Of a stretch of DNA of 64,000 nucleotides, positions 1,771 through 6,478 are shown piece by piece. The position numbers were made by a program, and so were the translations under genes. Numbering within the stretch: the first letter of the stretch is position 1; every line of letters begins with the position of its first letter. Below the pieces are notes generated by a model. It was not told the DNA's origin, ran no database searches, and was given only the letters and a program-made list of their open reading frames with translations. Source of the DNA: Salinibacterium amurskyense (GTDB lineage: Bacteria > Actinomycetota > Actinomycetes > Actinomycetales > Microbacteriaceae); the NCBI RefSeq assembly GCF_002797685.1, contig NZ_PGFH01000001.1:1736001-1800000 (forward strand), in the 5' to 3' direction.

Positions 1771-1823
1771 GGGTTTCATAGGAACCACCGCCACCATGGC
1801 TCTCATCACGATCAGGAGAGACC

Positions 1824-2771
1824 ATGAAACGACGATTTTCCACGGTGGCCGCGACAAGCGTGCTGCTTCTTGCCCTTGCAGGCTGTACCGCAGCAGAGAG
1901 CACGGATGCTGAAACAAGCACCCCCACGGTCGAGGCGACAGAAAGCGCTACGACCGCGACCACGGCATCGTTCGCCGCGTCCAACGGAGACTGCGACGCT
2001 ATGGCCGCAACGCTGCGTGAGGTTGAAAGCGCGAACCCCGATCTTGTCGACCCCGAGTTATCAGCAGTGTGCGATGGCGACACCCTGACGATCACCAGCA
2101 ACAGCATCCCTGACTACCTCTACATCGCCACGACGCCTGGTTCGCCCAAGGTTTCTGAGGTCACGATGACTATCCCCGTAAACCCCACGGTGGCGGATGA
2201 ACCCACCGACGTTCCTCTCCTCGGCGCTCTCGGCGTCGCCGTGAACGGCGTCCCCATCTATGGCCCCACGGAAGGCACGGGCGGTGACGTGAAGTCGCTC
2301 GCGGGTGCGCTCTCGGAGTGCGGCAGCCACAGCGGCCCCGCCGACTTCCACCTGCACTGGTTCGGTTACGCCGACGGCGTCGACTGCCTCTATGACGCGG
2401 ATGAGGTCGAAACCGGTGAGTCGCTCGTGATCGGCTGGGCCGCTGATGGCTACCCGATCATGTCCGGAGTCGTGTGCTCCGACGACGAATGCAGCGAAAC
2501 AGTCCAGCTCACGAGTAGCTGGCAGCTCACCGACGAATCGCTCTTTGCCACGGACACCTGGGCTGCCCACAGCTACGTCGAAGGCTCGGGAGACCTCGAC
2601 GAATGCAACGGCCGCGTCGATAGCGACGGCCAATACCGTTACTACTCCACCACCACATTCCCCTACTTCGTCGGTTGCTACTACGGCGATGTCGCAGACG
2701 ACGCCCTCGGCGGCAACAATGCTGCCAATCCCGGCGGCGGCGCTGGCGGCATGCCCGGAGCAGGGGGCTAA
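1824..2771 (+). CDS. YHYH-domain lipoprotein
   Basis: A 315-residue exported protein. The N-terminus is a clear lipoprotein signal with lipobox LAGC (Cys at about residue 21), then a Ser/Thr/Glu-rich linker to about residue 50. The body resembles the YHYH domain: a GVAVNGVPIYGP stretch, then HSGPADFHLHWFG, then GWAADGYPIMSG. The name-giving Tyr-His-Tyr-His is here Phe-His-Leu-His-Trp, a conservative variant. The C-terminus is Gly-rich (GGNNAANPGGGAGGMPGAGG). YHYH proteins are secreted proteins without an agreed function, often found beside other exported proteins. An AGGAGA ribosome-binding site precedes the ATG. The stop lies 2 bases before the DUF305 gene, so the two are almost certainly one operon. 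Confidence 0.8.
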   Translation: MKRRFSTVAATSVLLLALAGCTAAESTDAETSTPTVEATESATTATTASFAASNGDCDAMAATLREVESANPDLVDPELSAVCDGDTLTITSNSIPDYLYIATTPGSPKVSEVTMTIPVNPTVADEPTDVPLLGALGVAVNGVPIYGPTEGTGGDVKSLAGALSECGSHSGPADFHLHWFGYADGVDCLYDADEVETGESLVIGWAADGYPIMSGVVCSDDECSETVQLTSSWQLTDESLFATDTWAAHSYVEGSGDLDECNGRVDSDGQYRYYSTTTFPYFVGCYYGDVADDALGGNNAANPGGGAGGMPGAGG

Positions 2772-2773
2772 CG

Positions 2774-3406
2774 ATGCGCCGCACAACACGCACCGATGAC
2801 GGTGCCCCCAACACCGCTCGCCGCAGCTTCCTCGCTTTCGGGGCGCTCGCGGTTGCAGGCACGGCGCTCGCGGCATGCACCGCCACAGACTCGGATGCCG
2901 CGGGCGAGAGCGCAGAAACTCCCAACGACACCGACATCGGTTTCTTCACTGACATGGCCCTGCACCACGAGCAGGCTCTCGCCATGTGCCAGCGAGTAAT
3001 CGGACGAGACAACGGAGATTCCGTGCAGTCGCTGGCCGCTGACATCCTGCAGAACCAGTCGTTCGAACGCGGGGTCATGCACACGTGGCTCACGGTCTGG
3101 GGCGAAAGTACCGCCCCGCCCGAAACCGTCATGGGGTGGATGGGCATGGAAATGCCCGCAGCCGAAATGATGGGCCTCGCCACTGACGAACAGATGAGTT
3201 CTCTCGCCACGGCCACGGGTATCGCCCAGGGACGGCTATTTCTCACCCTCATGCGCGCTCACCACGTGGGCGGCGTCCACATGGCCGAGATGGCGACTGA
3301 GAATGCGGCAATCGCAAACGTGCGCACCACGGCAGAACGGATGGCCACGATCCAGAACTATGAAATAGGGATCATCGACCAGCTTGTGGCGACCACCTAT
3401 GCGTAG
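2774..3406 (+). CDS. DUF305 family exported lipoprotein
   Basis: A 210-residue protein. The frame is open further upstream, but the ATG at 2774 directly follows the YHYH gene stop and gives a proper signal peptide. The signal has a twin-arginine-like ARRSFLAF and a lipobox LAAC at about residue 34. The mature part fits DUF305, a helical ferritin-like domain: DMALHHEQALAMCQRV near residue 57, a Met-rich GWMGMEMPAAEMMG stretch, and MRAHHVGGVHMAEMA near the end. In Synechocystis the DUF305 protein CopM binds copper, so paired His and Met residues here suggest metal binding; that is an inference for this protein. It probably acts at the outer face of the membrane with the YHYH partner. Confidence 0.85.
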   Translation: MRRTTRTDDGAPNTARRSFLAFGALAVAGTALAACTATDSDAAGESAETPNDTDIGFFTDMALHHEQALAMCQRVIGRDNGDSVQSLAADILQNQSFERGVMHTWLTVWGESTAPPETVMGWMGMEMPAAEMMGLATDEQMSSLATATGIAQGRLFLTLMRAHHVGGVHMAEMATENAAIANVRTTAERMATIQNYEIGIIDQLVATTYA

Positions 3407-6425: not shown

Positions 6426-6478
6426 CCGATCCTGAGCCGACAGGCCGGGGATTGAAAAACTTACGCCGAGTTATCAGC

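Follow-up and report, generated by a model that had tools for sequence, protein, structure and literature searches.

The 64,000-nucleotide stretch of DNA analysed here, hereafter the window, corresponds to C1:1736001–1800000 of the 2.78 Mb genome of Salinibacterium amurskyense, and near its start two genes on the same strand, 2 nt apart, encode a YHYH-domain lipoprotein (YHYH-A, of what we call the window subtype) and a DUF305 protein (DUF305-A). The adjacency of these two genes recurs far beyond chance in other genomes, and the pair is a real unit: the pairing is specific to subtypes in both search directions, the partner DUF305s form one clade, and residues are invariant in both proteins. 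We propose, with moderate confidence, that the pair is one exported metal-handling unit in which a metal, most likely copper, is transferred on the outer face of the membrane. The first-pass annotation of the window had described two adjacent exported genes of the YHYH and DUF305 families, and this observation is confirmed by the coordinates and by Pfam, with a PF14240 match of 94.1 bits for YHYH-A (cut-off 25) and a PF03713 match of 118.7 bits for DUF305-A (cut-off 27); its interpretation is partly supported.

A scan with a seven-sequence alignment as query covered 84,980 species, each represented by a single genome; the best 80 of 455 relatives represent 79 loci, 51 of the window type and 28 with other YHYH genes; some metagenome-assembled genomes (MAGs) give two or three loci, which are thus not independent. 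Window-type YHYH genes occur in Salinibacterium, Acidimicrobiales/Ilumatobacter, Granulosicoccaceae and one Myxococcota MAG (51 loci), and at these loci a DUF305 gene is downstream on the same strand in 43 and divergent in one, two loci are at contig ends, and five are without DUF305. No DUF305 gene is present in the locus at any of the 28 other YHYH loci of the scan. In the genus sample, where YHYH genes are found in 12 of 27 genomes, all 13 window-type loci (11 genomes) have a DUF305 gene directly downstream. YHYH genes are present in 17 of the 396 genomes of the phylum sample; the window type is found there in S. amurskyense and three genomes of another class (G279, G361 and G436), again with DUF305 adjacent. 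When 25 further YHYH loci from the family and phylum samples were rechecked, the window-type motif was absent except at L077–L079.

The paired DUF305s used for the tree described below were retrieved via their YHYH neighbours, so that their pairing is given by construction, and a reverse search with these proteins serves as the independent test. This search gave four matches of at least 289 bits in the 396 phylum genomes (next best 144 bits) and 13 in the 27 genus genomes (next best 139 bits). As S. amurskyense is counted in both samples, 16 strong matches are distinct, and all 16 adjoin a window-type YHYH gene. The one near match to DUF305-A that lacks a partner (G404, L228) is a decayed fragment with a stop codon. 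A survey of co-occurrence, as advised in the first-pass annotation, shows no enrichment at the level of whole genomes, where DUF305 is found in 166 of 249 family genomes overall and in 10 of the 15 that are YHYH-positive, and genome-level co-occurrence of the two families was rejected on these counts; the link lies instead in the adjacency of particular YHYH and DUF305 subtypes.

The distances among YHYH proteins and among their DUF305 partners correlate, with a Mantel r of 0.77 for 46 pairs and 0.54 for the 35 pairs outside Salinibacterium, and in neither case were 0.77 or 0.54, respectively, reached in any of 2000 permutations. As many as 36 distinct sets of flanking genes surround the pair across 42 loci, a figure that is an upper limit given our own choice of open reading frames (ORFs) and the short contigs. 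Besides the two genes themselves, any gene cluster that recurs does so in at most six of the 51 window-type loci. Salinibacterium sp. G-O1 carries three copies of the pair in three contexts. In the tree, the Granulosicoccaceae DUF305s nest within those of Acidimicrobiales, which suggests that the pair has been transferred as a cassette. A conserved block exists upstream of the pair; in a comparison of 10 upstream regions, the block from TTTCATAGGAA to the ribosome-binding site (RBS) is common to a copy elsewhere on the G-O1 chromosome (L091), and since this relocated copy also has it, the pair may carry its own promoter. We do not claim a common operator 5′ of the pair, as the apparent repeat is partly the end of the upstream DUF805 gene.

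The pair has two-component genes next to it in L101 and L116, and a kinase-like ORF in L110; in L101 (Acidimicrobiales MAG DHS20C19) a two-component system related to the one at the start of C2 (described below), a YHYH gene of the type found there, YHYH-A and DUF305-A lie in a row. At four loci the window-type YHYH domain is, as judged by eye, fused to other extracellular modules (L104, L108, L120 and L122), with RTX-like repeats in L108 and L120; of these loci, L104, L108 and L122 are without DUF305 and L120 has it divergent. A nearby oxidase had been put forward as a reason for copper handling. Pfam (PF00510) confirms a gene for cytochrome oxidase subunit III at 6452, but the flanks of the pair differ from locus to locus among relatives, the oxidase is not a conserved context, and we rejected its proximity as an explanation.

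In a quick tree, the divergent DUF305 groups with the 46 paired ones in a single clade (Shimodaira–Hasegawa-like approximate likelihood-ratio test, SH-aLRT, 99), separate from 29 solo DUF305s, drawn from an 80-genome search and from the S. amurskyense genome, and from six second-module or other Salinibacterium DUF305s. M61, H64, H65, C72, M102, M120, M123, M132, M160, H163, H164 and M170 are invariant in all 46 paired proteins, and residue 72 is Cys in 46/46 paired compared with 0/29 solo DUF305s. Every motif quoted in the first-pass annotation was found in the protein named: FHLHWFG at residue 175 of YHYH-A, and LHHEQALAMC at residue 63, GWMGMEMPAAEMMG at 121 and AHHVGGVHM at 162 of DUF305-A. 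The accompanying description of the pair as rich in His and Met applies to the Met content of DUF305-A (7.1%), which none of 19 reference ORFs of the window attains, but not to its His content (2.9%), which is ordinary (6/19 as high), nor to YHYH-A, whose 4 His and 5 Met are equalled or exceeded in 16/19 and 15/19 reference ORFs, respectively; for YHYH-A the richness was rejected on this comparison. Rather than their abundance, it is the position of the His residues in YHYH-A that matters, with three of the four being invariant.

The predicted model of DUF305-A has a predicted local distance difference test (pLDDT) score of 88, and its best Foldseek match is 2qf9 (8.9e-9, TMt 0.87), followed by 3bt5 (2.5e-7) and by CopM entries solved with Cu(I), Cu(II) or Ag (8e-5 to 4e-4); the model thus shows the helical bundle known from DUF305 structures, that of CopM included. 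In YHYH-A, residues H169, H176, H178 and D208 are invariant in an alignment of 64 relatives. A jumbo-phage survey from 2021 predicted a Zn site of three His and one Asp in YHYH proteins, and proposed that they are tail-associated metal-dependent hydrolases (PMC7824862); the invariant residues of YHYH-A appear to match those of the predicted site, with D208 the probable counterpart of its Asp. The YHYH motif had been described as replaced in YHYH-A, which is literally so, as Tyr-His-Tyr-His is absent and the protein reads FHLH. Both His are retained, however, so the change leaves the His of the motif intact, and the paired relatives in Granulosicoccaceae still read YHYH. Across the 51 window-type loci, 37 have FHxH and 13 have YHxH, 8 of the latter being Granulosicoccaceae; the motif region is missing at the remaining locus (L154), which was assigned to the window type by hand.

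The model of YHYH-A (predicted template modelling score, pTM, 0.79) matched no solved structure at E≤0.001 in the structure search and none with Z≥2 among 428 aligned chains, and no hydrolase fold was recognised in this comparison of a predicted model with solved structures. Five viral models matched at E≤0.001, of which two are named YHYH proteins and three are nameless in the table of matches. Distant relatives of YHYH-A are encoded by YHYH-domain genes on 25 viral contigs (L169–L193).

Both proteins carry apparent export signals. A lipobox-like sequence was detected by regular expression in 40 of the 46 paired YHYH relatives; of the six others, five have a looser lipobox by eye and one is truncated. 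An RRx-hydrophobic motif stands 39–56 residues ahead of the first HH in 46/46 paired DUF305s and in 1/29 solo DUF305s, as judged by a regular expression applied to at most 90 residues before the first HH. The same expression also matched two of the six second-module DUF305s, at 75 residues before HH and thus beyond the apparent gene start. The presence of the RR motif in every paired DUF305 suggests that DUF305-A is exported via the twin-arginine translocation (Tat) pathway.

Features of the YHYH-A/DUF305-A pair, in positions of the window
Feature	Positions	Strand	Details and basis
Upstream spacer with RBS AGGAGAG (1814–1820)	1771..1823	+	sequence
YHYH-domain lipoprotein YHYH-A (window subtype)	1824..2771	+	315 aa; PF14240 E=1.4e-26, residues 115–288
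Sec-type signal peptide and lipobox LAGC (Cys21) of YHYH-A	1824..1886	+	by eye
YHYH domain	2166..2687	+	residues 115–288, Pfam; AlphaFold2 model of YHYH-A, pLDDT 83
H169 ... F-H176-L-H178, the three invariant His, with the YHYH motif in its FHLH version	2328..2357	+	alignment
D208 (in DGYPI), invariant, the probable fourth ligand at the predicted metal site	2445..2447	+	alignment
DUF305 protein DUF305-A (paired clade)	2774..3406	+	210 aa; PF03713 E=3.1e-34, residues 54–203
RRSFL twin-arginine-type motif and lipobox LAAC (Cys35) of DUF305-A	2819..2878	+	sequence, lipobox by eye
First HH motif, M61-x2-H64-H65 ... C72	2954..2989	+	alignment of paired clade
Met-rich loop, M120-x-W-M123 ... M132	3131..3172	+	alignment of paired clade
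Second HH motif, M160-x2-H163-H164 ... M170	3251..3283	+	alignment of paired clade

In the arrangement that we propose, DUF305-A would be a four-helix CopM-type protein, probably exported in folded form by the Tat pathway as its RRxFL motif suggests, and would hold a soft metal, most likely Cu(I), through its two Met-HH motifs, the Met loop and Cys72. Met and Cys together form a ligand set typical of Cu(I) and Ag(I). YHYH-A would be exported by the Sec pathway as a lipoprotein, fold outside the membrane and hold its metal by H169/H176/H178/D208. Metal would then be exchanged on the outer face of the membrane, with YHYH-A either receiving it from DUF305-A or giving it up to DUF305-A. We infer each of the Tat route, metal binding, copper, transfer, and supply in preference to detoxification. 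Copper appears the likeliest metal because CopM, which has the same fold, binds copper and because several unrelated neighbours of YHYH genes are copper proteins; that we saw no efflux genes accompanying the pair makes supply appear likelier than detoxification. The exported metal-binding module of the first-pass annotation thus stands as an exported unit with invariant residues of metal-ligand type in both proteins, while the binding of metal is a prediction.

The neighbours of other YHYH genes are varied. The S. amurskyense genome has four YHYH genes, and a second module 8 kb upstream of the pair, on the same strand (C1:1729515–1732102; L009:5515–8102), comprises a canonical YHYH gene, DUF3105 and another DUF305. 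At the start of C2 (C2:1103–6685; L010), two tandem YHYH lipoprotein genes are followed by HupE/UreJ_2 (PF13795) and a divergent two-component system, and the apparent signal peptide of this HupE/UreJ_2 would leave an N-terminal His (cleavage between TAAWA and HDGT, by eye). G082 and G197 likewise have a YHYH pair with HupE and the kinase, and the arrangement is also seen in L040, L042 and, partly, L073; G539 has two YHYH genes beside HupE/UreJ_2, and HupE_UreJ_2 lies beside YHYH in five loci. The tandem locus, with its HupE/UreJ_2 and two-component genes, looks like a regulated metal-uptake operon. The two-component systems beside YHYH genes resemble many regulator families, with none above an NCBIfam cut-off among the matches listed.

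In five of five loci from Poseidoniales archaea (L143–L146 and L149), a large YHYH-domain protein is directly followed by a homologue of the copper chaperone SCO1/SenC, the two of these that were run against Pfam (L143 and L146) giving 1e-21 and 3.6e-21. A secreted protein of His1 type, whose first residue would be His once the apparent signal peptide is removed, follows YHYH in 9 of the 10 gammaproteobacterial loci of the distant set, the exception being L165 (Leucothrix). In L148, L156, L157, L159, L162–L164, L166 and L167 this protein, which would begin with HLMVA after cleavage at a preceding Ala, is encoded −21 to +26 nt after YHYH; the L148 protein has no Pfam match and that of L163 has only an EF-hand match under the cut-off. 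A multicopper oxidase gene lies beside YHYH in L080 (G339), where YHYH genes flank it on both sides together with a two-component system, and in L060 (G657), which also has a DUF305 gene. Four Actinomycetota loci encode, near YHYH, an exported protein of about 250 residues with the pattern VWADNW...GEDSV.ITTERSFNAE (L073:9286–10095, L076:7610–8371, L080:6149–6886 and L158:4128–4955); the two examined (L080 and L158) have no Pfam match.

As a tentative extension, we consider it possible that the YHYH protein is generally an exported copper handler, with an unsolved fold and interchangeable dedicated partners, and that the window pair serves copper supply, its DUF305 protein being folded before Tat export and handing Cu(I) to YHYH. 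The partner in the present clade would be DUF305-A; marine archaea would use SCO1/SenC, Alteromonadales and kin would use N-terminal-His proteins, and Actinomycetota would use HupE/UreJ_2 importers and multicopper oxidases.

Several observations weigh against a copper-handling unit. The flanks of the window-type pair were annotated by a motif scan plus Pfam on chosen proteins, and none of the 444 ORFs scanned had a motif of copper ATPases, heavy-metal-associated (HMA) domains, multicopper oxidases or CsoR; the scan gave only pattern matches of CopC-like (one) and cupredoxin-like (two) type. Five window-type loci (L104, L108, L114, L122 and L128) are without DUF305 despite 730–4985 nt of available sequence, and three of these five are, by eye, YHYH fusions. 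The window subtype is also not unique in its neighbour, since canonical YHYH genes in seven Salinibacterium loci lie 0.1–3.6 kb from a DUF305 gene; those of the associated DUF305s that were placed in the tree fall outside the paired clade. DUF305-A scores 52.8 bits against the NCBIfam model for CopM (NF049983), under its cut-off of 90, and Pfam TAT_signal gave no match on DUF305-A. No measurement of metal binding by a YHYH protein, or by a member of this DUF305 clade, came to our notice. Where other YHYH types occur, the neighbours are unrelated or housekeeping genes at eight planctomycete and three Microbacteriaceae loci, and the sets of metal-gene neighbours come from few lineages, so that their counts are not independent. 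Neighbours unrelated to metals in relatives, which the first-pass annotation had regarded as speaking against a metal role, are thus found in part for the window-type pair, but are offset by the other YHYH genes that adjoin metal genes.

An alternative that we consider rather unlikely is that YHYH-A is a metal-dependent, Zn-containing hydrolase acting on an envelope or external substrate, with DUF305-A as an accessory partner in metal delivery or folding. The three-His-plus-Asp Zn site and phage-tail hydrolase proposed in the jumbo-phage survey (PMC7824862) point in this direction, as do the invariance of three His and one Asp among the relatives of YHYH-A, the 25 viral YHYH loci and the identity of the best viral model matches as phage YHYH proteins. 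However, YHYH-A matches no solved fold and hence no hydrolase fold is recognised, other YHYH genes have SCO1, HupE/UreJ_2, His1-type and multicopper-oxidase genes beside them, which suggests metal handling, and a Met-rich, Cys-bearing partner of CopM type would fit Cu(I) better than Zn. Distinctly unlikely, in our judgement, is a role in detoxification of copper or silver, in which the pair soaks up excess copper outside the membrane in the manner of Synechocystis CopM. The CopM-like fold and HH motifs of DUF305-A agree with such a role, and CopM, which binds Cu(I), confers copper resistance in Synechocystis, where mutants are copper sensitive (PMC4335983). Yet nothing recognisable as an efflux pump, copper ATPase or copper sensor turned up in the motif scan around the 51 window-type loci. 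The CopM-style neighbourhood of two-component and resistance–nodulation–division (RND) efflux genes was likewise not seen among the scanned genes beside the window pair or, by motif scan, in the flanks of its 51 relatives, apart from the two-component genes of L101 and L116 and the kinase-like ORF of L110. DUF305-A also scores under the CopM cut-off, and a free scavenger would presumably need no fixed YHYH partner.

The RR motif of all 46 paired DUF305s raises the matter of metal identity, as the Tat-exported Mn-cupin MncA folds in the cytoplasm and entraps Mn before it meets Cu or Zn, whereas the Sec-exported CucA takes Cu (PMC4192464). This comparison leaves room for a metal other than copper, such as Mn, Fe or Ni, as the reason for cytoplasmic folding and Tat export of DUF305-A, and HupE/UreJ-2 domains have been termed known nickel permeases (PMC12537917). 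We nevertheless regard a non-copper metal as highly unlikely: CopM, with the same fold, has been solved with Cu and Ag, and the Met/Cys ligand set fits Cu(I) or Ag(I). The idea we find hardest to credit is that two exported genes without joint function merely happen to share a segment that is mobile or inherited. Many window-type flanks do consist of unrelated genes and the pair has clearly moved, but these two genes alone remain linked across as many as 36 contexts, which contradicts such an origin; moreover, L120 keeps both genes though they are divergent, and the sole partnerless near match of the reverse searches is the decayed fragment.

YHYH-domain proteins are widespread in bacteria, marine archaea and viral contigs, and the domain is also reported in diatoms (PMC11992049). 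Almost no literature exists on them, and a fixed partner that is related to a copper-binding fold gives a testable lead on their role. In the open-access literature, three papers name the YHYH domain, no paper naming both YHYH and DUF305 was among the 30 listed of 71 matches to either, and nothing was found on the YHYH domain with copper or on DUF305 with twin-arginine export, although descriptions elsewhere are possible. The 16 reciprocal pairs, in many contexts, supply clear mutants and controls for the proposed exported metal-handling unit. Labelling these proteins simply DUF305 or CopM-like obscures a separate clade, marked by a Cys and an export motif of its own.

Compared with known systems, DUF305-A and CopM (Synechocystis sll0788; 5fej/5ffc/5ffd) are alike in fold, in HH motifs with nearby Met and in being exported. 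Unlike CopM, DUF305-A has Cys72, an RR signal motif and a fixed YHYH neighbour, and it has no surrounding copper operon. The closest solved structure is that of a secreted DUF305 protein from Streptomyces coelicolor (2qf9; 38% identity over 154 columns), which is annotated merely as a putative secreted protein DUF305. In the Actinomycetota “anglerases”, an N-terminal-His domain on Ang-2-HupE/UreJ-2 is reported to bind Cu (PMC12537917, 2025); the C2 HupE/UreJ_2 of S. amurskyense shares the apparent N-terminal His, though it adjoins the other YHYH pair and not the window pair. YHYH-A, finally, resembles the YHYH family (PF14240) in its whole-domain match, invariant His triad and Asp, and its subtype differs from the family in general by FHxH in place of YHxH in 37 of 51 loci and by a near-fixed DUF305 neighbour.

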